Below, piece by piece: positions 1 to 14,642 of a stretch of DNA of 64,000 bases (the stretch's first letter is position 1; every line of letters starts with the position of its first letter). The translations under genes were made by a program, and so were the position numbers. Origin of the DNA: Saccharicrinis carchari (lineage in GTDB: Bacteria > Bacteroidota > Bacteroidia > Bacteroidales > Marinilabiliaceae); the NCBI RefSeq assembly GCF_900182605.1, contig NZ_FXTB01000006.1:1-64000 (forward strand), read 5' to 3'. A model generated the notes under the pieces. The model made no database searches, was not told the origin of the DNA, and saw only the letters and a list, made by a program, of their open reading frames with translations.

Positions 1-3000
1 GTAGGAGGCTTCGTATTCCTGCTCAGTTACACCCCTCACCGGATGCGACATATACCACTCCAAAGATTTAGGAATGCTCCACTCGTAATTAGTTTGCCCA
101 CTAACCGTTCCGTAAGTAATTAATGAAGATGGTTTTGACGGAGTGTTTTTCACTGTCAATTTATCATTGGTTGTTAAATTGCCATTCACCGTAAGTTTTG
201 CGCCCGGGTTTAACGTTAAAGAAGCATCGGCCTCAATGATGAGGTCGTTTACCTGTGCGAGGCCTGCGTCGGAGATTACCGGGGCCACACCCGTGTTGGT
301 GATGGTGATATCAGTACCTCCACCGGGCAAGATAGCTTGTGCCCAGTTACCCGGGTCGAACCAATCTGAGCTACCACCCAACCAATCGAATTCTGGTATA
401 CTAATAGAGCTAAAAGTTAAATACTTATTGCTCCCGGGACTAAAACTCATGTTATTCTGTAAGCGGACTGTACGCGTAAGTATCTGCAGCAGATCAATTG
501 GTACAGAGCTCCAGGATATTCCATCCCATTGTGCAACACGGAAGTTGAGGTCAGGAATCACCCCACTGGCATCGTCCCAGCGCAAAGACATATTGGCAGA
601 ACAATTTTTGTTAGGTGCCTTTATCTGCCAGTACTCATTGTGGCTCACATACTTTAGGAGACCACTTAAAGCATTTGGGTCGAAACCATCGTTACCCGGG
701 TTGGTGCTGTGGTAAGTTGCTTCCCAGATGCCTCCGGATAAAGGAGCAACACTCACCCCAATCTGACCATAGCGGGTATTATCTCCCACAGGGAAAGTAA
801 AGCTTTGTAAGTTGTTTATTTTTTTACGCAATGGTCCTTCCACATAACTTGACGTACTTCCTCCCACAACAGCGGATGATGATGCATTGGTAATCGTCAG
901 GCTTCCTCCATCCTTAGTACTTAAAACACCACTGCTTAAGTTCAATTTATTAGATACCTCTATGTTATTCTTCAGCCTGGCTTTGGCAGAATTGTTAATG
1001 GTTAGATTATACAAAGCTCCACCTCCGGAAGATGTAAAGTCCGTTGTTCCACCAACCGTTTGATGAGAGCTACCATTTAGCACAAACGAGCCGGAACGGG
1101 CACTATATGTACCGCCATTAAAATAAATATCACCACCCACCGAGAGTGTTTTGTTGTATTCGTTATCTACATCGGGTCCGTCTATCATTAAATCGCCAAA
1201 TAACTGAACATGCAGGTTCGGGAAATTCCTTGTGCCACTTCCGCTTATAGTCAGATTATTTAGTTGTGTTACCTCACTCAGTATGTCGTAATTTTTCATA
1301 CTACCGGTAAACTCTAGTGTACCTCCATTTGATGAGAAAAATTCATCATATACCCCGGCCGGCATATCACCACTTTCCAACACCAAAGTTCCGCTTCCAC
1401 TTACTTCACCAAAACGGTGGGCAAATGTAGCACCCGTTTTTAACACTCCTGAGGGCTGTAATATGGTACGATAAGCTGCGGCCTCGCCATTTCTCGATAA
1501 GCTTATTTCGTGCCTTATATGCACAGCACTCCCCCGTGGGCCCAACACAGGTACGCCCACACCCGCTGCTCCCGTAGTGGAAGTAGCCGGATCGTAAGTG
1601 GCCCAAATGCGCTGTGTTTGCCAGTCGCCATTGGCTACTGTAATGTAAGAGGGTACTTTATCGGGAATAGCCGCAGGAATACCAGCTGAATAATCTCCAT
1701 CGATATCGGCATCTGTTGCCAAGGCAAATTGGTAAGTTAAGGTATTAGGCTCCACAAAATCGTCCACATTAAACTTGTACACCGTATCACTAACCAGGGC
1801 ATACTGTGCGGTTACGTAATCCTCAACCACATGTCCGTTTAAGGCGATATCGGCAGGATCACAAATCATAGTCACGTCTGCTGTAAATCCGTTTATTCCT
1901 TGTGCATCTAAAGTCCAGTTATACTGCAACACATTATTGATATCCAATGCACTTAGGTGTGCTTCATTTGCCGCTTTTACCCGAATCGATCCTGTACCGG
2001 CCGCATAGTTCAGATTGGTAAACGAAACCGGCGTGTATTTACCAAAGGAACCCAATGGATAGGTAAAGGAGCCACCTGCTGTGCTGGGAAAATCTTTACG
2101 AATACCAGCATCTGAAAACGACAAGTTGGTCTGTACCATATTGGCACTTGTGTAGCCGCCATGGGTAGTGCCCGGACTAAAGGAAGCCGTTGGGGTTAGT
2201 ACCATCAGATTACGACCTATATCAAACACGCCATCCTCTAATGTTAACATGTCGCTTATCTCTATGGCTGCAGATTGGGTTGGCATCACCACTCCCCTTG
2301 CGTTATCAATACATAAACGACTAAACACGCCTGTACCTGACAATTCCTGTTGGTCTGCAATACTGTTCATCACAATACCCAAAGCGGTACCACTGCTTAC
2401 TGTTGTCGCGTTGTTAAGCAGATTGCCCTGTACATGCATATTATGAATATCTGTGTTCAAGGTACCGGCTAAGAGACTTAAATTATTAGCCACATCAATG
2501 TTTGATGCCAGGTTTAAGGTATTTGAAGTCTGTTTTACTAAATTATAAAAGGTGCTTGCTCCCCTAATGGTTTGGTCGTTGGTTCCATCCAGGTAGGTGG
2601 TATTGTTATTGGCCGTATAAGTACCCGCATTGTTAAAGTCACCCTTTACACTCACATCTAATCCTGCTGCATCCAACTCGGCACCCGTGCCAATGGCCAG
2701 ACTTTCTTGCAAGTTAAGCGGCAGTACCATAAGCGTTGCCTTGGGTGTATTCGTAGCATTGATGCTTAGGTTGTTAAATGGCTGCGCGGCATAAATACCC
2801 ACTTCCTGTGAGGCTGGCGTGTGCGTATCGTGGCCAATGACAAAACCACTACCGGTGCTTAGGTTCACTGTTTCCGGGTCGAACCACAAACTACGATAGC
2901 CGGCACCATGGCCGCGCGCAATGGTAATCCGTGCGTTTTGGGCCTGCGTAAAAGAACTACCCGCTCCCATGATTTCGAATACGCCCCTTGAGGTGTCACC

Positions 3001-6000
3001 CGCATCGTTCATCCCAACAGTTACTGTCGCAGTTTCATCATTCTGATTAAAGTTTAACAATCCCACATCTGTTTTTAAGGAGCGGCGAATTTGTGAACCT
3101 ATGTTGAGCTGCGCATTATTGCCCAACCATATAGTAGCCTCCCCCGAAGAGGAATACGCGATGTAATTATCCGTAAAGCCATTGGCACCCTGGTTACAAT
3201 TAACGGTTCCATTATTGTCAACGATTAAAGCGCCATCTAACCAGATACCGGTATTGGATGCTGCTCCTCCTACATTTACCGAGGCTCCCCCATCTACTTT
3301 CAGGGTTGTGCCTGATGGAATACGGAAATCTTTTCCGCCTGTGGATAAGTTAATATTGATGGCTGAATTATTTAAATGGCATTCGCCGGAAATGAGAGAG
3401 AGGGGTTTGATTGCCTTATCCGCAGGCCAACGTAAAGTAAAATCGTTAACAAATGTAACCTTCTTTCCTACCGGCTTATCTACTACTATCTTCGAAAACT
3501 GGGCTTCTTCGGCAGGTGTAGCTACCGTGGCATTTTCCAACCCTTGAAAATAGAAAGTGATGGAATTGGTTTGCGTACCCTCTACTTTATACATACGAAA
3601 GCGACGACCACTGTGGTTAATGTTTCCATCCAGTTTAATTTTATGCTCTAAGGATACGCTTCCTGCATTTTGAGCCACAATGTCGCCTGTTGTGGATGTG
3701 ATAATATCTCCACCAACAGAAACTGTTCTTTCATTACCCATTCTTCTAAACCGAATCCTGTTGGATTGAATATTCAGATTACCCAATATTTCCATATCAC
3801 CATTCGTTCCGGTGTTTAGGTCCAAATCTGCCCCGTCAATTACCAAATCTCCGGCTACCAACAAATCTACATCGGCTGTCGTCTTCCTACCACTACCTGT
3901 AATATGCAGGTTAGGATATTTATAAATACTCGCTGGCAATTCATACTGACCTCCGCTAAATTCAAAAATGGCATTGGGATTATTACAAAACTCAGAATGG
4001 TCGCCATTAATTAGGTTGTTGCCGTTGTATCGTATAGTACCTGAACCCTTAATTAAATCGATATCATGTCCCGTTTTACCTGCATTGACGATTAATGCAC
4101 CCTCAATTTGAATTTGCGAAGCATCGGCGTTGTTGGCATCAATTGTTACTGTGTCACCTGAAGCTATTATACAATAATCATTTTTCTGTGGAGCCGATGC
4201 ACTCCCAGTTGAATGATTAGGGTTGGTTGTCCAAGTATTGCCTCCATTAAACGCTCCGTTTGTTTTGCTATATAAAGTTCTTGGAGGGTCGTAGAAGAAA
4301 CCTTCAATCTTTGCAAATGTAAAATCTGTCTCTAGAAAAGAATTATATGGAAAACGGATAGTCCTATTTCTCACATCTGTTGAATAATCATTCCATTTAT
4401 AATTTGAAAAAGAGCAATTGGTAGCTCCTAAGCGAGTTAACCACCAGTTAAAGTTGGAATAATATGTAAATTGATATCTTATTTTATTTTCCTCTGTACT
4501 TAATCCCTTTTGAGTTACTTTCCAATAAAAAGGCAAAGCTAATTCTGGACTCGGATTAGTATTGGTCGGATGATAATCATTAACCGGTCGAACCGTAATT
4601 GTTCCATTAGCAGACAACACGGCATTGGCATCTGCCTGCATGGGGGTGTAGCGGGTTGTTCCTCCTTCATTTACTCCGATAGGAAAAAACTGAATATCCG
4701 TTCCATTGTCATTCTGATTAACTGATAAGGTCAGACCACCATCCGATGCTAAGCCGGATGTACGAAACAGTCTGGTTGCACCCCAATTGGCATCTGCACC
4801 CGAGTAGGTTGAATTTGAAATGTTAATGTTATATCCTTCCAAATCAAAAATCAAGTCACGTTGAAACTCAACAGAAGTGGCGTCCACATCGCTCAATAAT
4901 TTTATTTGAGGAGCCGTGCCATAGCTGTTGTTTAATATCAGCTTACCAAAACCCGGGTTTTGCCCGAGTTTCCCTTTAAGGGTTTGTTGGGCTGAAGAAC
5001 TATTTAATACTAATGCGCTAGCACCAGAAATGCCACCATAAGATATATCAATGTTTCCACCCAGGTTACGTTCAATTGAACCAACATCTAAAGTTCCTTT
5101 ACTAATAGTAAGGTCACCAGTTATATTTATCGCTCCCGCACCCAGAGTAACCGTTTGTGTTTCAGCCTCCTTTTTTAATTCCAAGGTGCTAAAATTAAGA
5201 TTCCCGGTGATAATTGATGGGTTAGCCCCTATAAAACGCGTTGTATTTGTCCCGGTTGTATAAGTTCCATTATTGGTAAAATCACCTCTAATTTCCAGGG
5301 TATGGCTGGCTGCATTTAAGGTTGTATTAGCTGCAATGTCAAGATCGTTTAACACGGTGAGCTCACTTTGCAAGGCCACTGCTTGTGAACCTCCGCGAGC
5401 AGAGTTGGTTAGACGTAGGTTGTAAAAGGGTGCAGTAGAATTAATTTGAAACGCCGTTCCTGCTCCCAGGGTAGGTGTTTTAATTTGGATGGTACCTCCT
5501 GTTACGTTGTAGTTACCCGAGGTAGCGCCAATATCAATGCCATTGGTAGCTGCGGTGTTTACTGCATCGATGACAATCTGCCCTCCAGTCATCTCAAAAT
5601 AATCGTCGGTACCGGGCAAGGCAAATATGGCTGATGAACCACGACCGTCCGCCAAGCTGTTGATATGCATCGTACCGCCCGATTGTATGTAGTTGAACTT
5701 ACCACTGGCGTCACTTTGCTTTAACTGGGTAGTATATACATCTCCACCGCTTATTTCCAACGTTCCGGGATTATCAGCATTGCTAAAATAGGTAATACCA
5801 CCCGTACCGGCCGGGTTGGTAAAAGATCCGGACGACACCTTGAGTTTACCGTAAACGGTAATGCCACGCCAGCCCCCACCCGACTCGTGTGTAGCTACCG
5901 TAGCGCCATTAATCCACAATTGCGCGCTGGCAGGTATGTGAAATTCATTGGGAGACGAACCGTTTCTGTTCGCCCCAAGGCGCGGAATATCGATGTTGGA

Positions 6001-6996
6001 CTCCAACTTTAAGGTGCCGGAATTCAGAACCAAGGCCAGTCGTTGCCACCCTGCCGGGCCATCGGTAGGTTCGATACCCGAAGCTCCACTTATGGGGCCA
6101 TCCAGGCTAAAATTAGTGGCATTGTTGGCACTCACAGCCAGGGTGTAGGTGCGGTCGGTTCCCTTATTCAGGAACATACGGTAAAACGTTGTAATACCAT
6201 TGCAAAGCAGTTCGTTATCTGAGTTACCTGTAAAATTTACATTTACTGCGCCATTACTTGCCGCAGTATATTGTGCCGCATTTGTAAAGTCGATGCTCCC
6301 GTGGTTTTTAAAATCTCCGGAAGCATTGATACGGTGTATGGCGTTGGCCGTACCAACCGTCATTCCTCCCTTGGCCTGCACAGCGATATCCTTTGCTACA
6401 TCCAGGGTTAATGGTGAGGTGTTGCTGCCGTCATTTACCTGCAAGGTTCCTTGCAGGATATTCAGGTTCCCATTTAGCTTTAAATTATTTAAAAGCGTTA
6501 CGGTTTGTCCGGCGTTGGTATTTACTTCCAAACTATAGAAGGTATCCGTGGCACCGGAACCATAAGTAAAGGAGTTGCCCTCCAGAACCACCGTTCCCTC
6601 TCCTTTTCCTTTCGTAATAAAATGAGATGCATCACTTACCGTAGGAAAGTTATTTCCTTGAATAAAAATTTTACCACTTCCCCTTAAGGTGTTCATCTTG
6701 TGATTCGTTGTGGTGCCCAACTTTAAACTGCCCTCAATGGTCACTGTTCCCAAATCCATAGTAGTAAGCGGATCTGTTACCTGCACCGTAACCACCTTAC
6801 CGGATTTAATCACCACATTATCGCCGGCCATCGGTACGGCACTCCCCACAGGAATGGCCCCAGCGGGGTCAAGTGTCCAGATATCGGCATTATGCCAGTC
6901 ACCGCTGGCCAGGGTGTAATATGTATTTTGTGCCTGGCTCCTCACTGCACCCAGCAAGAGCAACACAACTACTAAAAACGTGTAAATATTCCTCAT
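1..6996 (-). CDS. Giant secreted surface protein, C-terminus cut by window edge
   Basis: An open frame of 2332 codons runs from ATG at 6996 to the left edge without a stop in the stretches I translated. The N-terminus is a typical signal peptide (about 22 residues, hydrophobic core, ending SQAQ). The mature part starts with a Y-x-L-x-S-G-D-W motif followed by an I-W-T-L-D-P-A-G segment, and a similar YITVANGDW...IWATYDP module recurs near 1560-1680. Most of the rest is short Gly/Asn/Thr-rich beta-strand sequence rich in phrases such as GSGTL and NNLKLNGNL, as in beta-helix adhesins. The last visible part has a WLGGSSDWFDPGNW module and a WYMSHPV motif that usually stand close to the C-terminus of Bacteroidota T9SS cargo, so the missing end probably carries a sorting domain. 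Specific function unknown; adhesin or matrix protein is an inference. Confidence 0.85.
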   Translation of the reverse strand, partial: MRNIYTFLVVVLLLLGAVRSQAQNTYYTLASGDWHNADIWTLDPAGAIPVGSAVPMAGDNVVIKSGKVVTVQVTDPLTTMDLGTVTIEGSLKLGTTTNHKMNTLRGSGKIFIQGNNFPTVSDASHFITKGKGEGTVVLEGNSFTYGSGATDTFYSLEVNTNAGQTVTLLNNLKLNGNLNILQGTLQVNDGSNTSPLTLDVAKDIAVQAKGGMTVGTANAIHRINASGDFKNHGSIDFTNAAQYTAASNGAVNVNFTGNSDNELLCNGITTFYRMFLNKGTDRTYTLAVSANNATNFSLDGPISGASGIEPTDGPAGWQRLALVLNSGTLKLESNIDIPRLGANRNGSSPNEFHIPASAQLWINGATVATHESGGGWRGITVYGKLKVSSGSFTNPAGTGGITYFSNADNPGTLEISGGDVYTTQLKQSDASGKFNYIQSGGTMHINSLADGRGSSAIFALPGTDDYFEMTGGQIVIDAVNTAATNGIDIGATSGNYNVTGGTIQIKTPTLGAGTAFQINSTAPFYNLRLTNSARGGSQAVALQSELTVLNDLDIAANTTLNAASHTLEIRGDFTNNGTYTTGTNTTRFIGANPSIITGNLNFSTLELKKEAETQTVTLGAGAINITGDLTISKGTLDVGSIERNLGGNIDISYGGISGASALVLNSSSAQQTLKGKLGQNPGFGKLILNNSYGTAPQIKLLSDVDATSVEFQRDLIFDLEGYNINISNSTYSGADANWGATRLFRTSGLASDGGLTLSVNQNDNGTDIQFFPIGVNEGGTTRYTPMQADANAVLSANGTITVRPVNDYHPTNTNPSPELALPFYWKVTQKGLSTEENKIRYQFTYYSNFNWWLTRLGATNCSFSNYKWNDYSTDVRNRTIRFPYNSFLETDFTFAKIEGFFYDPPRTLYSKTNGAFNGGNTWTTNPNHSTGSASAPQKNDYCIIASGDTVTIDANNADASQIQIEGALIVNAGKTGHDIDLIKGSGTIRYNGNNLINGDHSEFCNNPNAIFEFSGGQYELPASIYKYPNLHITGSGRKTTADVDLLVAGDLVIDGADLDLNTGTNGDMEILGNLNIQSNRIRFRRMGNERTVSVGGDIITSTTGDIVAQNAGSVSLEHKIKLDGNINHSGRRFRMYKVEGTQTNSITFYFQGLENATVATPAEEAQFSKIVVDKPVGKKVTFVNDFTLRWPADKAIKPLSLISGECHLNNSAININLSTGGKDFRIPSGTTLKVDGGASVNVGGAASNTGIWLDGALIVDNNGTVNCNQGANGFTDNYIAYSSSGEATIWLGNNAQLNIGSQIRRSLKTDVGLLNFNQNDETATVTVGMNDAGDTSRGVFEIMGAGSSFTQAQNARITIARGHGAGYRSLWFDPETVNLSTGSGFVIGHDTHTPASQEVGIYAAQPFNNLSINATNTPKATLMVLPLNLQESLAIGTGAELDAAGLDVSVKGDFNNAGTYTANNNTTYLDGTNDQTIRGASTFYNLVKQTSNTLNLASNIDVANNLSLLAGTLNTDIHNMHVQGNLLNNATTVSSGTALGIVMNSIADQQELSGTGVFSRLCIDNARGVVMPTQSAAIEISDMLTLEDGVFDIGRNLMVLTPTASFSPGTTHGGYTSANMVQTNLSFSDAGIRKDFPSTAGGSFTYPLGSFGKYTPVSFTNLNYAAGTGSIRVKAANEAHLSALDINNVLQYNWTLDAQGINGFTADVTMICDPADIALNGHVVEDYVTAQYALVSDTVYKFNVDDFVEPNTLTYQFALATDADIDGDYSAGIPAAIPDKVPSYITVANGDWQTQRIWATYDPATSTTGAAGVGVPVLGPRGSAVHIRHEISLSRNGEAAAYRTILQPSGVLKTGATFAHRFGEVSGSGTLVLESGDMPAGVYDEFFSSNGGTLEFTGSMKNYDILSEVTQLNNLTISGSGTRNFPNLHVQLFGDLMIDGPDVDNEYNKTLSVGGDIYFNGGTYSARSGSFVLNGSSHQTVGGTTDFTSSGGGALYNLTINNSAKARLKNNIEVSNKLNLSSGVLSTKDGGSLTITNASSSAVVGGSTSSYVEGPLRKKINNLQSFTFPVGDNTRYGQIGVSVAPLSGGIWEATYHSTNPGNDGFDPNALSGLLKYVSHNEYWQIKAPNKNCSANMSLRWDDASGVIPDLNFRVAQWDGISWSSVPIDLLQILTRTVRLQNNMSFSPGSNKYLTFSSISIPEFDWLGGSSDWFDPGNWAQAILPGGGTDITITNTGVAPVISDAGLAQVNDLIIEADASLTLNPGAKLTVNGNLTTNDKLTVKNTPSKPSSLITYGTVSGQTNYEWSIPKSLEWYMSHPVRGVTEQEYEASY

Positions 6997-7646: not shown

Positions 7647-9440
7647 TTACATCAGCCCATTCCTCCGCATGGATTGCACCATATCATAAAACGCAGCTTT
7701 CTTTTCCAGCAGCTCCGAGGGGGTACCTACCTCAGCCACACCGCGTTCGTTGAGCACTACAATACGATCGGCCAAATGGATGGTGGATAAACGGTGACTG
7801 ACAATGATAGCCGTACGGTCTTTGGTGATGGCCTTAAAATTTTCAATTAACCTGGATTCGGTAAATGCATCCAGCGAGCTGGTTGGTTCGTCCAAAACAA
7901 CCAGCTGCGCATTATTAAAAAAGGAGCGCGACAGGGCGATGCGTTGCCATTCGCCCACGCTCAGCATTTCGCTGTCTTTAAATAAAGTACCCAGCACCGT
8001 GTCATATTCGTTGGGTAAGGTAGTAATCAACTTATCAATACCCGATTTTTGGGCACTAAGCACTATCTCTTCATCACTTTGCGGACGCTTAACATTACCA
8101 TACCATATATTTTCGCGGGCCGTTACATTGTAAAGCATAAAATCCTGAAACACTACGCTCACATTTTCGGCCAGAGAATCCTTATTAATTACAGAAAGAT
8201 CCACGCCGTCAAAAGTGATGCTGCCCTGGTCTGGTCGATATAAGCCACACAGTAGCTTTACCAGCGTCGACTTGCCAGCTCCATTAGCACCAACCAAGGC
8301 AATGGTTTCACCTGGATTTATATTAAAACTTACATTCTTAAGTGCTGCTCTGGAACTGTTAGGATATTTAAAGCTAACATTATCTATACATACCCCCTCT
8401 TTCATTATTCCGGGGAAGAGGGTTGCATTTTTCTTTTCATAACGTATCACATCAAAATCGATAAACTCAAACAAGTTCTTTAAAAACAGGCCATCTTCAT
8501 ACAATCCGGATATTCTGCTCAGTAAATCCTGCAAAAAACTATAGCCACGATACATAGCCAAAAAATACATTACCATTTGCCCTTGGGTAATGTTGCCCTG
8601 AATAGCCGTAGAAGCAATAAAACCAAAAACTACGATAAGAGCCGCTGCCGTAATCAACTGCACGGCTAGTTCATAAGCTGTTTTGAGCTTGAGCATGCCA
8701 TAACGCTTGCCCCTTAAATTATTCTTTTGCTCCTCAAACCGCTTTTTAAACAGACCCGACAAATTAAAAACCCGCAACTCTTTGGCGAAAGCTTTATCTG
8801 TGAGCAAGCGGTTATAGTATGCCACATTGCGTTCATCTTCCGTATGTTCGCGGTTAAAAACGAATATCTTACGCGAATATTTTAAGCGAATATAAACCAC
8901 AGGTACCGACACCAGCACCAGTACGATCATGAGTACCCAACTCAATCCGGCCAACAATCCGGCTATTAATGCCAGGGTAATGCTATTTTGGATAAGCCCC
9001 ACAAAACCATAATAGATTTTTTTAGGGCGATAGGTAGCCTCGTTGATGGCTCGATAGTATATATTTTGAAAGTTATAATCATCGAAGTTGGCAAAATCGA
9101 GTTTAGTGGTACGTTTGTGTATTAAATCCTGGACGCTGTCGTCGATATAATACGCATGTTTTTCGCTGATGATGCCGGACAATGAATTGAGTAGCGCATT
9201 AAGCACAAATACCCCGCCCGCAAAAAGCAATATGTAATACACGGATTCAACGCCCTGCACTGTATGGTCGCCCGTTAACACACGACTCACCTCATCCACG
9301 AGCATCTGCACAATAAATATCAGCAGCAAAGGCATCACCCCCTTTAACAATACCACAGCCGCATTCACAAGGCTCCAAGTCGGCGAGCTTTGCCATACTA
9401 TTTTGAGTGAGCGGAATATGTTGTTGGATGTTTTTTTCAT
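7647..9440 (-). CDS. ABC exporter, fused membrane and ATPase domains
   Basis: A 597-residue half-transporter of the type I exporter (MsbA/lasso-D) layout: an N-terminal six-helix membrane domain (about residues 15-310) followed by an ATPase domain with Walker [10 protein letters not shown], the signature LSVGEWQ, Walker B VVLDEPTSSLD and the switch histidine in VSHRLST. It would act as a homodimer in the inner membrane. There is no C39 peptidase domain, so it would not cut a leader itself. I chose ATG 9440 (MKKTSNN) rather than the longest frame from 9506, because the 22 extra residues are encoded by repeat-element DNA. It lies in the same direction as the peptidase, kinase, peptide and PqqD-like genes, separated from them by a repeat array, and fits as their exporter. 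Substrate is inferred from context only; a lipid or drug exporter is possible. Confidence 0.85.
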   Translation of the reverse strand: MKKTSNNIFRSLKIVWQSSPTWSLVNAAVVLLKGVMPLLLIFIVQMLVDEVSRVLTGDHTVQGVESVYYILLFAGGVFVLNALLNSLSGIISEKHAYYIDDSVQDLIHKRTTKLDFANFDDYNFQNIYYRAINEATYRPKKIYYGFVGLIQNSITLALIAGLLAGLSWVLMIVLVLVSVPVVYIRLKYSRKIFVFNREHTEDERNVAYYNRLLTDKAFAKELRVFNLSGLFKKRFEEQKNNLRGKRYGMLKLKTAYELAVQLITAAALIVVFGFIASTAIQGNITQGQMVMYFLAMYRGYSFLQDLLSRISGLYEDGLFLKNLFEFIDFDVIRYEKKNATLFPGIMKEGVCIDNVSFKYPNSSRAALKNVSFNINPGETIALVGANGAGKSTLVKLLCGLYRPDQGSITFDGVDLSVINKDSLAENVSVVFQDFMLYNVTARENIWYGNVKRPQSDEEIVLSAQKSGIDKLITTLPNEYDTVLGTLFKDSEMLSVGEWQRIALSRSFFNNAQLVVLDEPTSSLDAFTESRLIENFKAITKDRTAIIVSHRLSTIHLADRIVVLNERGVAEVGTPSELLEKKAAFYDMVQSMRRNGLM

Positions 9441-9490
9441 GGCCAAAAGATAAGAAAAAATAAAGCTTATTAATCCCATGTGTGTACAAA

Positions 9491-9750
9491 TAGACCCCAT
9501 CCCCATGCCTGCAGCATGGTACTTCCCCTTTTTCGCAGGAAAAAAGGGAAGAGCCGTCGCTGTATTTAAACCCCTACCTTTTTAAGGTTCTATCCAGTTC
9601 ACAACTTAAAGAAGGAAAAATATTATTTACAACGGGATCATATTGCGTAACATAGAAATGCCCGTTGCAACGATTCCCCGCCTTAGAAAAGGCGGGGTGG
9701 ATGCTATGAGGTACGAATAGCAGACGGGGTGGTTGTATGCCTTGCCGCTA
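9491..9750. repeat. Repeat unit 1 of the DUF559-associated family
   Basis: Contains module A (GCATGGTACTTCCCC ... GGGAAGAGCC hairpin, 9514-9552), a spacer with a CTATCCAGTTC core near 9590, and module B: the stem CCCCGCCTT/AAGGCGGGG (9676-9684 and 9689-9697), then GGATGCTAT ... ATAGCAGACGGGGTGG. The same order of modules returns at 10164, 10456, 10783 (truncated) and 48135. It lies directly upstream of the DUF559 gene. Confidence 0.75.
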
Positions 9751-9800
9751 AAATCTGTTTTTTACCAACATTTTCCCTAACTTGATTTAAAATTTACATC

Positions 9801-10166
9801 ATGAAATCCAACAGTCCACACTTAAAGCACTTCAGGAAACAATTGCGTAACCATTCTACACCAGCAGAAATTGAACTGTGGAAATACCTTAAAAACAAAC
9901 AGATTACAAGACTCAAGTTCAGAAGGCAACACTCCATCGATAATTTTATATTAGATTTCTTTTGCCCTCAAATAAAATTAGGTATCGAATTAGACGGGGA
10001 ACAGCATATTTATAGCGTGGAGTATGATTTAAAACGAGATGAAAAATTAAACACCTGTAATATTACCATCCTAAGAGATGAAAATGTAATGGTACTCGAA
10101 CATCCGAATATTATTATAGATGAAATAAAGGAATATCATGAGCGATGGTTGATGAGAAACGGATAG
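9801..10166 (+). CDS. DUF559 family endonuclease-like protein
   Basis: A 121-residue protein of the DUF559 family, related to the Vsr/restriction-like nuclease fold. Visible family signatures are the TPAEIELW segment (residues 20-27), F-x-R-Q (40-43), ILDFFCP with Asp52, and IELDGEQH with Glu63, Asp65 and Gln68/His69, the likely metal-binding residues. Length is normal for the family. The gene is the only plus-strand gene in this region and is flanked closely on both sides by copies of the same structured repeat, as if gene and repeats travel together. Its role is unknown: a DNA endonuclease that helps the repeat spread, or a self-contained mobile unit, are inferences from context. No terminal inverted repeats of a classical IS and no transposase were seen. 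Confidence 0.8.
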   Translation: MKSNSPHLKHFRKQLRNHSTPAEIELWKYLKNKQITRLKFRRQHSIDNFILDFFCPQIKLGIELDGEQHIYSVEYDLKRDEKLNTCNITILRDENVMVLEHPNIIIDEIKEYHERWLMRNG

Positions 10167-10430
10167 ACCCCATCCCTACCGCTATGCGGCAGTACTTCCC
10201 CTTTTTTCAGAATAAAAGGGGAAGAGCCATCTCCGTTTATAAACCTGTGCACTTTTTATGAGTTATCCAGTTCCCAACTTAAAAAAGGAAAAATATAAAT
10301 TACAAAGAAAATTTTAGTTTATCATAAAAATACCCGTTGCAACGATTCCCCGCCTTAAAAAAGGAGGGGTGGATGCTATAAGGTACGAAATAGCAGAAGG
10401 GGTGGTTATAAGCCTTACCGATAATACAAC
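10164..10430. repeat. Repeat unit 2 of the DUF559-associated family
   Basis: Starts at the stop codon of the DUF559 gene. Module A is a TTCCCCTTTT ... AAAAGGGGAAGAG hairpin (about 10194-10227). The spacer has TTATCCAGTTCCCAACTTAAAAAAGG-like sequence near 10261-10290. Module B has stem arms CCCCGCCTT (10348-10356) and AAGGAGGGG (10361-10369) with one G-A mismatch, followed by a second small hairpin GCTAT...ATAGC. Confidence 0.75.
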
Positions 10431-10455
10431 TCACATCTGAAAATAAATACGTATT

Positions 10456-10757
10456 TACCCCCATCCCTGCAACTTACTCTTGCGCCGAAGCTACAGCGTA
10501 GGAGCACGTCGCAGTACTTCCCCCTCCCTCAAAAAATGGGAGTGGGAAGAGCCATCGTTGATTGTAAAATTGCTTTATACTATGAATCTTCCAGTGCCCT
10601 AACATAAAAAAAAGAAAGAGCTAATTTACGAAGGAGATATTTTACTATCTGGCAAAATGCAACACACAACGATTCCCCTCCTTAAAAAAGGAGGGGTGGA
10701 TGCTATGAGGTACGAAATAGCAGACGGGGTGGTTATAAGCCTTACCGATAATACAAT
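10456..10757. repeat. Repeat unit 3 of the DUF559-associated family
   Basis: Module A here is TTCCCCCTCCC ... GGGAGTGGGAA (about 10518-10548), changed on both arms relative to units 1 and 2. Module B arms are CCCCTCCTT (10675-10683) and AAGGAGGGG (10688-10696), a fully paired version different from unit 1. A segment at 10348-10594 repeats at 10675-10921 (offset 327) with about eight differences, so units 2-3 and 3-4 are recent duplicates. Confidence 0.75.
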
Positions 10758-10782
10758 TCACATCTGAAAATAAATACGTATT

Positions 10783-10950
10783 GATCCCCATCCCTGCAAC
10801 TTACTCTTGCGCCGAAGCTACAGCGTAGGAGCACGTTGCAGTACTTCCCCCTCCCTCAAAAAATGGGAGTGGGAAGAGCCATCGTTGATTGTAAAATTGC
10901 TTTATACTGTGAATCTTCCAGTCCCCAACCTTAAAAATGAAAGATATCTC
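10783..10950. repeat. Truncated repeat unit 4 of the DUF559-associated family
   Basis: Module A and the spacer (CCAGTCCCCAACCTTAAAAATG) are present, then the similarity stops at the end of the peptidase gene (stop codon at 10951-10953). Module B is missing. Nothing else gene-like is visible between 10167 and 10950. Confidence 0.65.
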
Positions 10951-11409
10951 TTACATCGAAAAGAATTTATTCCAAACACGCCCTGCGTAAAAAGTAAACC
11001 GTCCCATGTAAGGCGATATATTGGCGATAATCCGTTTTACCCCTTTACGGTTGATAAAAATCTTTTCTTTCCCATTGCGGAAATGATGGATAACCACGCC
11101 ATGAACATTTTCTTCGGGCAAAAGCCTGTCCTTTGAAATCAGTCCATCGCCTTTGGCCAACACGGTTCCGTTTTCCGCATCGTATTTTAATAAGCGGTGC
11201 GCCACCAATTGGCGCTTATTGGTAAATACAATTACATTCCCTTTTTTAAGATTGCCGGGATTTGCTTTCTCCACCCGTACTGTATCGCCAGGCAAGTAAA
11301 AAGGAAACATGCTCAGTCCATAAACAGGCACATCAACGTAATGCTCCTTTTGTAGCATGGCGACAAAGGTTTCGCCAAATAAAACTTTGTTTCGATTATA
11401 GGAAGGCAT
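10951..11409 (-). CDS. S24/S26-like serine peptidase, no membrane anchor
   Basis: A 152-residue protein with the signal-peptidase-like core: GLSMFPFYLPGD with the likely nucleophile Ser33, a V-A-H-R-L motif with His71 in the place where SipW/ER-type enzymes carry histidine instead of lysine, and KGDGL (Asp88) corresponding to the third conserved box. Signal peptidases normally have an N-terminal membrane helix; none is visible here, so it may be cytosolic or peripheral. It follows the kinase-like gene on the same strand with a 250-base gap and is abutted by a repeat unit. In this setting it is the best candidate for removing the leader of the 72-aa peptide, taking the place of the transglutaminase-like B2 protease of lasso loci. 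That role is inference; an S24 (LexA-like) regulator is less likely because no DNA-binding domain is present. Confidence 0.7.
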   Translation of the reverse strand: MPSYNRNKVLFGETFVAMLQKEHYVDVPVYGLSMFPFYLPGDTVRVEKANPGNLKKGNVIVFTNKRQLVAHRLLKYDAENGTVLAKGDGLISKDRLLPEENVHGVVIHHFRNGKEKIFINRKGVKRIIANISPYMGRFTFYAGRVWNKFFSM

Positions 11410-11659
11410 TAGTGTTATTTTTTTACAACAGCAAAGGTAGTTGCATCCCCTTCTTTTGAGGTAAATGTACAGCTTATCTTTAGTTTTTTGCCATATTTCA
11501 ATATCATGTGTACAAAGAAAGCACCATGTTCACAATATTTCTTTGTGTTCGCTGTACAACCATAGTGTGCATTTTAGTCACTTTTTAAAGCAACTTATTG
11601 CGTTCTTTTTAAAAATAAAAAATCTTGTTGGCGAACATTGCTACCATACCTCCCTCCTA

Positions 11660-12559
11660 TCACTCCCCATCCATCCCTTTTATCATTGCCACAATATCAT
11701 GGTCGGGTTTAAAACCCACTTCATATACCTTCACTTTATTCAGCACCTCCTCCACCAGTCCCAGGTGGTTTTGAACCATTTGCTGCTGATAAAACTGCTG
11801 AATAAAATTACCGAGCACCCGCGAATAGGCCAGCACACCGCCCAAAGGTTGAATATAATTTTGTGGCGATTGCTTTAGCAGAAATATAGCTTTAAGTGAG
11901 GCCTCCCTTGGATGTTGCGCATAATAGGGCATGGGGTTATTATATACCCTCACCTCATCTTCGAAAGGTCGCAGCACCAGGCGATCGTCGTTAAGTATTT
12001 GGGCTCCGCACTCGCGCCATAAGCGGGCCATGGTCGATTTCCCTATGCCGGACACACCGGTAAACAAAAATGCTTTGCCATCTACTGCTACGGCCGAGGC
12101 ATGGATCAAAAGTCCCTTTTTACGCTGCATCAAATACAGCATCAACAACGAGCCCAAAGGATGAATAAAAGGATCAATGACGACAGACTTATCCAGCGCA
12201 TCTTTTAAAACGATTTGGATGTTAATGGTTGTATCATTATCAACAACAAAAGCGGTGATGGTTTGGATGTGAGGATGATCCGTATAGTCGACTGTTACAA
12301 CTACCTTTCCCTTACTATTGTACACATGCCATTTGTAGTTAAGTGCCTCATTGGCTTCGGGCTTACCAGCAAAAACAGGTTCATAGTTCGACAGGTCAAG
12401 TGAATGTACAACGGTATATTCTAAAAAATAGTCGGGGCTTATAACAGAATCTTGAGAAAGATAATGCCTGACCGAACCCTGCTTATCTAACTGTATTCGA
12501 TGGCTACCGCTTTGGCATTGGAAATAAAGACCGGCTATTTTTATGGTAAAGCGCTCCAT
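11660..12559 (-). CDS. HPr-kinase-like serine kinase of a peptide locus
   Basis: A 299-residue protein whose C-terminal half has the HprK fold signatures: an I-H-A-S motif at about residue 152, Walker A GVSGIGKST (168-176) and the acidic pair N-D-D at 190-192 in ILNDDRLVLRP. The N-terminal half (1-130) is a beta-rich domain without a clear family. True HPr kinases work on the sugar phosphotransferase protein HPr; shorter homologues (ThcoK, PadeK) phosphorylate the C-terminal serine of lasso precursor peptides. The neighbours here, a PqqD-like protein and a small peptide with a lasso-type leader, point to the second role. A gap of 146 bases separates it from the peptide gene. No HPr or PTS gene is nearby. 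Function inferred from family and context. Confidence 0.7.
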   Translation of the reverse strand: MERFTIKIAGLYFQCQSGSHRIQLDKQGSVRHYLSQDSVISPDYFLEYTVVHSLDLSNYEPVFAGKPEANEALNYKWHVYNSKGKVVVTVDYTDHPHIQTITAFVVDNDTTINIQIVLKDALDKSVVIDPFIHPLGSLLMLYLMQRKKGLLIHASAVAVDGKAFLFTGVSGIGKSTMARLWRECGAQILNDDRLVLRPFEDEVRVYNNPMPYYAQHPREASLKAIFLLKQSPQNYIQPLGGVLAYSRVLGNFIQQFYQQQMVQNHLGLVEEVLNKVKVYEVGFKPDHDIVAMIKGMDGE

Positions 12560-12705
12560 AGATTGTAGATTGTTAGATAATAGACAAAAGACGGATTTGC
12601 AGCATTTATTAACATTTACCAGACATCTGGAACACTAATCAAGTAACTAATAGCTTTACACTTACAAAAAATTAAGAAACACCTACACCCATAAAGACGA
12701 ATTAT

Positions 12706-12924
12706 TTAATATTGAGGGGTGCTTCCGCCAAAAGGATCATTGTCCGCCGAAGTATTGGATAGTTGGGCAGGTCCTTGTTGCGGAGTACGCTGAGCCGCAG
12801 GCGGATTGTCTCCTGGCCCTCCCGGAAAATCACTATCCATCACCATCGATATCTGAAAATCCACATCAATCACCTCCAGCAGTGGCTTCGAATATATTTT
12901 CTTATTTTGTATCTTCGTTTTCAT
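12706..12924 (-). CDS. Putative RiPP precursor peptide, 72 residues
   Basis: A small ORF located 23 bases after the PqqD-like gene and before the kinase-like gene, all on the same strand. The N-terminal part has Y11-S-K-P14-L-L16-E-V-I-D-V, matching the Y-x-x-P-x-L leader motif that lasso B1/RRE proteins bind, and from memory it is close to the leader of paeninodin. The C-terminal part (residues 33-72) is Gly/Pro/Gln/Ser/Thr rich: FPGGPGDNPP, then Q-R-T-P-Q-Q-G-P, ending STPQY. There is no Cys. Seven Ser/Thr residues in the second half are possible phosphorylation sites. I find no standard lasso core: no Gly/Ala start with Asp/Glu at position 7-9 and Thr at -2; Ala53 with Asp61 at position 9 is the only ring option and lacks Thr at -2. 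Modification type is therefore open. Confidence 0.65.
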   Translation of the reverse strand: MKTKIQNKKIYSKPLLEVIDVDFQISMVMDSDFPGGPGDNPPAAQRTPQQGPAQLSNTSADNDPFGGSTPQY

Positions 12925-12947
12925 TCAAATAAAATCTTACCCCATAA

Positions 12948-13238
12948 CTATTGCCTGGCGAATAAAATTCCTCTATTAACCATGTCGTTTATAAAAAAAG
13001 TGATGTCGTCTAATGCTTGGTTTTGGTCCACTTGGTAATTATTTATCAATGCTGTATGCACTTGGGCAATGTTTTTTTGTCCGTCGATGGTATCGTAAAT
13101 AAATGCGGCCACCTCGTTTAAGTTATACACCTGGTTCATGTTGGCTACGTTATCCGTTAAGGGTACCAGTACCTTTTCATCGCCAATGGCTTTTTCTACA
13201 AAGCCTTCACTTTTAACATAAACCAACGAAACATCCAT
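12948..13238 (-). CDS. PqqD-like leader-binding protein (RRE)
   Basis: A 96-residue protein of the PqqD family, the small winged-helix RiPP recognition element. Recognisable parts are L-V-P-L-T-D-N near the start, the Y-x-L-N-E-V-A-A-F-I-Y-D-T-I-D-G segment in the middle and the D-I-T-F-F-I-N-D-M-V-N-R-G-I-L end. I chose ATG 13238 (MDVSLVYV) over the longer frame from 13283, because a TAnnTTTG box lies between the two starts and the short form has the normal PqqD length. It is the first gene of the minus-strand series PqqD, peptide, kinase, peptidase. Its expected role is to hold the leader of the 72-residue peptide and present the peptide to the kinase or other enzymes; this follows from the family and gene order. 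Confidence 0.8.
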   Translation of the reverse strand: MDVSLVYVKSEGFVEKAIGDEKVLVPLTDNVANMNQVYNLNEVAAFIYDTIDGQKNIAQVHTALINNYQVDQNQALDDITFFINDMVNRGILFARQ

Positions 13239-13258: not shown

Positions 13259-13266
13259 CAAAAGTA
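13259..13266 (-). promoter_or_regulatory. Probable -7 box of the PqqD/peptide/kinase/peptidase operon
   Basis: Minus strand reads TACTTTTG, a match to TAnnTTTG, 21 bases before the ATG at 13238. A TTG lies only 14 bases further upstream, shorter than the usual spacing, so only the -7 box is well supported. Confidence 0.4.
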
Positions 13267-13361: not shown

Positions 13362-14381
13362 TTAAAACACAACCCTTGAATAAGGGGCAGCGTCCTGTTC
13401 TACAAAATCTTTGGCCAAAAATTTATAGTAGCCTGTAATAGCCACCATTGCGGCATTATCGGTAGTGTACGCAAACTTAGGTATAAAGGTTATCCATTTT
13501 TTACGAACAGCCATTTTTTGCAGCCCATCACGTAATCCGGAATTGGCTGAAACACCTCCGGCTAAAGCTATTTGGCTGATATTTAGGTCGTCGGCCGCTT
13601 TTTCTAATTTATCCAACAAAATATCTACGATGGTACTTTGCAAGGAGGCACACAAGTCATTTTTATTTTCCTCTATAAAATTTGGATTTTCTTTTAATCG
13701 ATCTCTTAAGAAGTAAAGAAACGATGTTTTCAGTCCGCTAAAACTGTAATCGTAATCTTTAACCCTGGGCCTGGCAAATTCAAAAGCATTGGGCTTGCCT
13801 TCTTTGGCCAATTTATCCACCAAAGGTCCACCCGGATAAGGTAAGCCCATCACTTTAGCGCATTTATCAAAAGCCTCTCCTGCGGCATCATCAATGGTTT
13901 GTCCCACCACTTGCATGTGCATGTAATCTTTTACCAATACTATTTGGCTGTTACCACCCGATACCAACAAGCACAGAAAGGGAAATTCAGGATGTGCCGT
14001 TTCCTGATCCGGCTCTTTAATAAAATGAGCCAATACATGGGCATGCAGATGGTTTACATCGATGAGTGGGATATTGTTAGCCAGGGCAAAACCTTTGGCA
14101 AAGGAAGTACCCACCAGCAGGGAGCCCATCAGTCCGGGTCCGCGAGTAAATGCCACGGCATCAATATCATCGGCGTTTACTCCTGCATCTTTTAATGCTT
14201 TGTGTACCACGGGAACAATATTTTGCTGATGCGCTCTGGAGGCCAGCTCAGGAACCACCCCACCGTATTCCCGGTGTACGTTCTGGTTGGCTATGCTGTT
14301 GGATAGCACCACCTCGTTTTTAAAAACGGATGCCGAGGTGTCGTCGCATGATGATTCGATGGCGAGTATGTGTATGTTCAT
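13362..14381 (-). CDS. tsaD: tRNA N6-adenosine threonylcarbamoyltransferase TsaD
   Basis: A 339-residue TsaD/Kae1 protein, which transfers the threonylcarbamoyl group to A37 of ANN-decoding tRNAs together with TsaB and TsaE. The start ILAIESSCDDTSASV, the metal-binding histidines in NHLHAHVLAH, the LVSGGNSQIVLV nucleotide-binding segment, GEAFDK and the ALAGGVSANSGLR segment are all present. Length is normal. It starts at ATG 14381 and stands back to back with tamB, a pairing common in Bacteroidota. The intervening DNA has a heptamer repeat. No oddities were seen in the protein. Confidence 0.97.
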   Translation of the reverse strand: MNIHILAIESSCDDTSASVFKNEVVLSNSIANQNVHREYGGVVPELASRAHQQNIVPVVHKALKDAGVNADDIDAVAFTRGPGLMGSLLVGTSFAKGFALANNIPLIDVNHLHAHVLAHFIKEPDQETAHPEFPFLCLLVSGGNSQIVLVKDYMHMQVVGQTIDDAAGEAFDKCAKVMGLPYPGGPLVDKLAKEGKPNAFEFARPRVKDYDYSFSGLKTSFLYFLRDRLKENPNFIEENKNDLCASLQSTIVDILLDKLEKAADDLNISQIALAGGVSANSGLRDGLQKMAVRKKWITFIPKFAYTTDNAAMVAITGYYKFLAKDFVEQDAAPYSRVVF

Positions 14382-14394
14382 TTTTAGATGATGA

Positions 14395-14470
14395 GAAGTT
14401 AGAAATTAGAAATTAGAGGTTAGAGGTTAGAAATTAGAGGTTAGAAGTTAGAGGTTAGATTTAGAAGTTA
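14395..14470. repeat. Tandem heptamer repeat GARRTTA upstream of tsaD
   Basis: Nine contiguous 7-base units (GAAGTTA, GAAATTA or GAGGTTA) fill 14395-14457, with one further unit at 14464-14470. It begins 14 bases upstream of the tsaD start codon, so it falls in the 5' region of tsaD and in the divergent spacer with tamB. Confidence 0.9.
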
Positions 14471-14642
14471 GGGAAATATGATTAAGGTGAATTTTCATAT
14501 AGCTTAGATGTGGTTAATTCGTAATAAAACAAGATATGCTGGTTTAGTGTTCAATTATTTATAAAGTAGCCCTAAGGCCGCCGATATTTATAGCATGTTA
14601 TTTGATATGTAATATTTTTTCTCTATCACCCGTTTATAGTAA

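Follow-up and report, generated by a model that had tools for sequence, protein, structure and literature searches.

A probable Bacteroidota branch of the machinery for linear polyphosphorylated peptides and its neighbourhood of type IX secreted surface proteins

What does a peptide-modifying cassette make when it encodes a recognition protein, a kinase, a peptidase and an exporter and no enzyme that would close a lasso? The question is raised by a 64,000-nucleotide stretch of the genome of Saccharicrinis carchari (hereafter the window; RefSeq assembly GCF_900182605.1, contig NZ_FXTB01000006.1, positions 1 to 64,000), in which an earlier note made from the letters alone had seen a lasso-like locus for a ribosomally synthesized and post-translationally modified peptide (RiPP), split by a repeat array. 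The five genes that the note described as lying on one strand were all found, on the minus strand. They encode a PqqD-like RiPP recognition element (RRE; 12948..13238; PF05402, 7e-14), a precursor peptide of 72 aa (12706..12924) with the leader YSKPLLEVIDVDFQISMVMDS and a 41-aa core ending in DPFGGSTPQY, an HprK-like Ser/Thr kinase (11660..12559), an SpI-like serine peptidase of the archaeal/endoplasmic reticulum (ER) signal peptidase type (10951..11409; TIGR02228, 49.6 bits, cut-off 51.85) and an MsbA-like ABC exporter (7647..9446; PF00005, 2e-34; TIGR02203 MsbA, 7e-80, far under the cut-off) that starts at the ATG at 9446, an alternative longer reading beginning at 9506.

In our assessment, this cassette probably represents a Bacteroidota branch of the machinery for linear polyphosphorylated peptides (LPPs), which would produce linear phosphopeptides and be partnered with surface proteins of the type IX secretion system (T9SS). 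This assessment is based on the near-identical set of core genes, the gene order kept in all six related loci, the mutual exclusion of SpI and lasso enzymes, the kinase tree, the conserved residues of the RRE, the kinase and SpI, a Ser or Thr at one leader position in 51 of 51 precursors, the SpI::exporter fusions, the presence of one RRE and one HprK match as against two precursors in the genome, and the T9SS domains of neighbouring proteins (9/10 and 7/7 in two sets). LPPs were described in May 2026 from the lpp cluster of P. alginolyticus; the description reports experimental evidence of phosphorylation by HprK, of an SpI peptidase and of RRE-dependent cleavage, with a linear primary product, and calls LPPs restricted to Bacillota and their biological role unknown (Popov et al., 2026; PMC13381572). 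Since a class with near-identical core genes has thus been published, the suggestion of the earlier note that the locus could define a new RiPP class is not sustained. By analogy with the LPP pathway, the RRE would bind the Y..P leader, the HprK-like kinase would phosphorylate one or more core Ser/Thr residues, and the RRE would guide the SpI-like peptidase in removing the leader, most likely after the Ser/Thr at Y+20 (S31 in the window). The MsbA-like pump would export the linear product, and the one machine would serve the cassette precursor as well as further precursors encoded at other places in the genome. The linear peptide envisaged in the earlier note, trimmed, exported and probably phosphorylated, is supported.

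The five-gene cassette is a real, non-chance association because the order tsaD-RRE-peptide-HprK-SpI-ABC recurs in 6/6 loci with a related kinase (L002-L007, from Saccharicrinis, Labilibacter and Plebeiobacterium), which bears out the conservation in relatives that the earlier note had proposed to look for; the precursor has orthologues in all six, and the same loci served to test domain matches below the cut-offs. Structure models were built from seven sequences. In a single-sequence search, the window RRE matches solved paeninodin-type and LPP RREs (9x90, 9x8z), and the profile of its family matches TbiB1, PbaB1, TfuB1 and LppB. The RRE residues N41 and D78, whose conservation across 36 sequences is 90% or higher, appear to be the counterparts of N33 and D70, the leader-binding residues of LppB; because residues of this type are common to many RREs, as noted in the LPP paper (PMC13381572), their conservation speaks for leader binding and not for membership in a particular class. 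The kinase sequence falls below the Pfam cut-offs, and its predicted fold matches HPr kinases, which top the fold search (model pLDDT 85); H153, S170, G171, G173, K174, T176 and D192, including the P-loop residues, are invariant in 39 sequences.

The profile of the SpI family matches the ER signal peptidase subunits SEC11C and SEC11A (SEC11C, 5e-11), and the SpI model (pLDDT 75.6, medium confidence) resembles LexA and signal peptidases, with a best E of 1.9e-3 and no match at 1e-3 or below, whereas a search of the PDB with the single SpI sequence returned noise only. Residues S33, H71 and D88 are invariant in 36/36 sequences, D94 being an alternative acid, and no C39 peptidase domain occurs among the matches of the MsbA-like exporter. 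The SpI-like protein is the predicted leader peptidase, and the proposal of the earlier note that a serine peptidase takes the role of the lasso protease B2 is supported. In five loci (L057, L058, L060, L061 and L063; verified with Pfam for L057 and L060), the SpI domain forms the N-terminus of the exporter, and the kinases of these loci make up one clade with a support of 98; the fusion commits peptidase and pump to a common task. Peptidase-containing ABC transporters (PCATs), with a C39 cysteine protease, are a known system close to this one. The Bacteroidota clade resembles them in having a leader peptidase fused to the exporter N-terminus and differs in that the fused domain is a serine SpI domain instead of the C39 cysteine protease.

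In the window precursor, residues 8-21 give a weak match of 13.6 bits to NF033524, a model of the paeninodin leader with a cut-off of 27. Altogether, 21 precursors were found inside complete or partial cassettes, and a leader profile made from 20 cassette precursors and run on 17 kinase-bearing genomes gave matches in 14 of them, at 37 places, 31 of which lie outside any cassette (two of the 31, both in genome G219, contain stops, and one of those two is absent from the neighbourhood survey described below). Two of the 31 share a contig with their own cassette, 34 and 35-36 kb away (genomes G085 and G355). The source genome has a single RRE match, a single HprK match and two precursors, the second outside the cassette at G000:C7:16143-16319. 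The leader is complete in 51 of 52 precursor rows; all 51 begin with Tyr, with Asp at +11, and have Ser or Thr, gap-free, at Y+20 (29 S, 22 T). The search demanded Pro at +3, and Asp at +11 served to choose between sites; Ser/Thr at +20 was not demanded, although the profile behind the outside precursors came from cassette precursors that already had Ser/Thr there. Toward the other end, P[FY] lies within the final 16 residues in 44/51 precursors and an aromatic residue within the final 13 in 51/51; the predicted cores are short (9-47 aa) and rich in Pro and Asp/Glu.

The window precursor is predicted to be cut after S31, a placement made by analogy with the Thr at -1 of the cut (T-1) in the leader of LppA, from the experimentally characterised system (PMC13381572). 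The Ser/Thr at +20 could, instead of being the cut residue, be the phosphosite. Two other candidate phosphosites were rejected: Ser3 of the core, which is not conserved among the precursors, and S26 (Y+15), which is Ser in 42/51 and otherwise T, N, C or A.

As judged from the published description, the Bacteroidota system shares with LPPs a discrete RRE, an HprK-like kinase, an SpI-like leader peptidase with Ser/His/Asp, an MsbA-like exporter and a YxxP leader; neither system has a cyclase or B2 in the cluster, and a nucleotidyltransferase is encoded in 22/60 of the Bacteroidota SpI loci. Bacillota LPP loci sought among plasmids with a 56-aa piece of LppB gave no match. The systems differ in the phylum, in the C-terminal P[FY], the outside-cassette precursors, the T9SS neighbourhood and the SpI::ABC fusions of Bacteroidota. 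Several observations weigh against the LPP reading. The Bacteroidota leader is five residues longer, with another consensus: the LPP leader motif YxxPxVLxHQxIxFETxxS is not matched, the distance from the Tyr to the predicted cut is 20 instead of 15, and the shared features are limited to YxxP, a hydrophobic residue at +5, a later Ile and the terminal Ser/Thr. Core Ser3, a phosphosite in LPPs, is not conserved in Bacteroidota; three of the 21 cassette precursors (L065, L068 and L069) have Thr and no Ser in the predicted core, and LppK, according to the LPP paper, did not phosphorylate Thr (PMC13381572). No precursor was found inside any of the five fusion cassettes; four genomes of the fusion clade (G306, G012, G219 and G355) have precursors elsewhere, and none was found in G038. 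Finally, the window cassette contains no nucleotidyltransferase gene, the only NTP_transf_5 (PF14907) match of the source genome being on another contig (G000:C1:275168-275818, L105), from where it might act in trans in the way LppN does in LPP clusters. The cassette is likely to work like the LPP pathway and is not a member of the LPP class as defined, because its leader motif differs and the nucleotidyltransferase lies outside the cassette.

With respect to its spread, a kinase profile matches 86/393 genomes of the order at E 1e-6, the weak matches including lasso kinases; it gave 90 matches, all but 33 of which were examined. At E 1e-15, a wider profile matches 14/395 genomes in a sample from across the phylum, and the system is patchy outside the order. 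Of 60 loci with SpI, 53 have the RRE and 42 the ABC exporter. A second large group of loci (L074-L084, L092-L103, L113 and L114) was also observed, many of them with an RRE, SpI, HprK, NTP transferase and an ABC protein of about 540-590 aa, which amounts to the full LPP gene set; the few precursor candidates in this group, picked by eye, differ. In L116, L117 and L120, from one distant family of the phylum, the kinase domain lies inside proteins of 660-670 aa.

The neighbours of the precursors suggest a role for the peptides. A survey of the outside precursors covered 30 stretches and 31 rows, of which 24 could be assessed after L143 (with an RRE beside it), a second partial row of L147 and five rows at contig ends were set aside. 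Seventeen of the 24 are preceded on their own strand by the gene of a protein of 639 aa or more, which ends 10-293 nt before the precursor; by a crude script for signal peptides, 11 of these large proteins have a signal, and the other six are cut by the contig end. In L155 and L159, the upstream gene is cut or encodes 487 aa. Ten C-termini from the 17 were scanned, and nine of them match TIGR04183, the sorting domain of T9SS type A cargo, seven over the cut-off. Among 32 cassette loci, six have a gene of 440 aa or more that ends 3-12 nt before the RRE gene, and in L056 such a gene ends at 78 nt; all seven of these proteins contain TIGR04183. Overall, 16 of 20 C-termini tested, from related loci, match this domain, 14 over the cut-off. 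T9SS cargo matches in six genomes range from 39 to at least 150 (52 in the source genome; at least 150 in G085 and G219). Finding at least 9/24 precursors beside such cargo has p of about 2e-15 if the background is set at 0.005 and about 2e-11 if it is set at 0.014, both backgrounds being rough estimates that draw on these counts. The window contains a giant secreted open reading frame (ORF) with a G8 domain (1..6996, minus strand; at least 2332 aa), on the same strand as the exporter gene and 651 nt beyond it, with a Sec-type signal recognized by eye; it is cut by the contig start, so that its C-terminus is outside the assembly. A large same-strand gene lies downstream of the exporter also in L002, L003, L006 and L007, and none was found within 1.5 kb in L004 and L005. 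The earlier note included neither this ORF nor the outside precursors and their T9SS neighbours.

Because most outside precursors lie directly downstream of large T9SS-type proteins, the mature peptides probably work with these proteins at the cell surface. Other neighbourhoods point the opposite way. Five of the 24 rows (L134, L136, L137, L151 and L158) have no large secreted gene upstream, the precursor in L136 sitting after a purF-like gene of 633 aa. The source-genome protein L133 is the only one of the ten scanned without a TIGR04183 match; its end looks alike by eye to that of L135, its apparent counterpart, which does match. The large neighbours tested in the clade of the window (L002, L003 and L007) do not match TIGR04183, and PF18962, the Pfam model of the same domain, was found in 7/10 C-termini at E 0.001 and over the cut-off in only 4/10 (nine of the same proteins plus L152). 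A more specific version of the partnership, in which an LPP-like machine equips giant T9SS surface proteins with dedicated phosphopeptides instead of a free product, and one cassette serves several scattered peptide genes, each of them encoded together with a cargo of its own, is offered as a tentative suggestion that falls somewhat short of an even chance.

Two other accounts of the same neighbourhood compete with this partnership. The mature phosphopeptide might be a structural part of T9SS surface proteins, for example by binding or anchoring the cargo, with one peptide per cargo, which is consistent with the T9SS cargo beside precursors and RRE genes, with the recurrence of the cargo-peptide pair at G000:C7 (L133) in G315 (L135), followed by the same genes, and with the conserved P[FY] and terminal-region aromatic residue. 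We regard this account as doubtful, given that it is drawn from gene context, that some precursors have no cargo neighbour and that, to our knowledge, T9SS cargo attachment needs no such peptide. Secreted RiPPs typically rely on ABC export and leader removal, and both features, as well as the short cores rich in Pro and Asp/Glu, would fit a stand-alone diffusible product, a bacteriocin or pheromone, with surface proteins lying nearby for other reasons. Such a product appears unlikely, however, when outside precursors stand beside T9SS cargo far above the rough background and six loci have an RRE gene at 3-12 nt from a cargo gene; furthermore, no immunity or receptor gene was noticed, although no search was aimed at one.

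The lasso assignment made in the earlier note does not hold, whereas the absence of a cyclase and B2, which it also reported, is borne out: neither lies nearby. The window system resembles paeninodin-type lasso loci in its RRE, HprK-like kinase, ABC transporter and related leader motif (WxxP in the latter, YxxP in Bacteroidota) and differs from them in having neither the B2 protease nor the macrolactam cyclase. The cassette is not a lasso cluster because the source genome encodes no protein of the B2 family (PF13471) and B2 or a cyclase is found in 0/60 SpI loci. Among 75 annotated kinase loci, 60 have SpI within 6 kb, six have B2 and cyclase, and nine have neither; conversely, SpI occurs in 0/6 of the B2 and cyclase loci. 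This table leaves out L045, judged to be on the same contig as L005, and loci without a kinase match; three of its six lasso loci were included on account of their B2, so that the p-value of the table is indicative only, and the leader, B2, cyclase and NTP profiles were built from loci that they then annotate. In the tree of 74 kinases, the six lasso rows and L104 form one side of a branch with a support of 100 and a long-branch warning, L104 being labelled lasso although its short contig shows neither B2 nor cyclase.

It is very improbable that a lasso pathway operates here with a cyclase and B2 encoded at other places in the genome. The window RRE does resemble the lasso chaperone NF033536, below the cut-off, the kinase and RRE are common to paeninodin-type loci, and the source genome encodes four full-length Asn-synthase proteins; however, three of these are on other contigs and the fourth is about 107 kb from the cassette on the same contig. 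PF13471, missing from the source genome, is found at E<=0.001 in 8/40 genomes with a related kinase and is absent at this threshold from the other 32 (over the cut-off, it is present in seven and absent from 33). In the seven genomes, the gene is on another contig or, in one case, 369 kb from the cassette, adjoins Asn-synthase and has its own kinase and RRE in 6/7 annotated loci. A lasso peptide with a trans-acting cyclase was rejected on these grounds. A chance grouping of unrelated genes, with a 72-aa ORF that encodes no RiPP precursor, can hardly be credited, even with several domain matches under curated cut-offs, in view of the conserved order, a conserved peptide with fixed leader spacing and the SpI::ABC fusions.

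The repeat array that was said to split the locus exists, and no link between it and the pathway was found. The insertion between the SpI and ABC genes (9541..10944) consists of a DUF559 gene (9801-10166, plus strand) and dispersed repeats, including an adjoining array of two 327-nt units at 10340-10944. A 271-nt repeat unit has 36 matches across the source genome, and among the six relatives only L002 has a DUF559 gene in the gap, the ORF lists of L003-L007 showing none at this place; the array is therefore considered an insertion outside the system. A functional part in the pathway was rejected on account of the 36 matches and of further DUF559 genes elsewhere. The repeats flanking the DUF559 gene carry palindromic CCCC...GGGG cores, and a second DUF559 gene (C2:262275) adjoins a cluster of the same repeats at C2:261-262 kb; the repeats look like a dispersed family linked to DUF559.

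Upstream, the cassette is bordered by tsaD (13362..14381, minus strand; PF00814, 5e-95), a landmark outside the pathway that occupies the same position in L002-L007. In 7/7 loci including the window, a box of the form TA(C/T)TTTTG (TAnnTTTG) precedes the RRE start by 27-30 nt; in the window it is TACTTTTG (13259..13266, minus strand), 28 nt ahead of the start codon. We take it to be a putative promoter -7 element on the Bacteroidota consensus. With about 0.5 such boxes expected by chance in all bases searched, the cassette seems to have its own putative promoter. A tandem repeat of AGAAGTT units was observed at 14394-14471, between tsaD and the next gene.

Among the literature matches listed, consisting of titles and beginnings of abstracts and mostly outside subscription journals, no paper describes the Bacteroidota gene set, a fusion of SpI with the ABC exporter or RiPPs linked to T9SS, and a word search of a survey of RiPPs in Bacteroidales gave no occurrence of S24, S26 or signal peptidase. 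If the interpretation advanced here is correct, a RiPP type called restricted to Bacillota extends into Bacteroidota, where the fusion of peptidase and exporter takes a serine-protease form. What is new and testable is the T9SS partnership, the nature of which is put forward as a hypothesis. It hints that a type of peptide whose role was unknown to its discoverers may act as a partner to surface proteins secreted by the type IX route.

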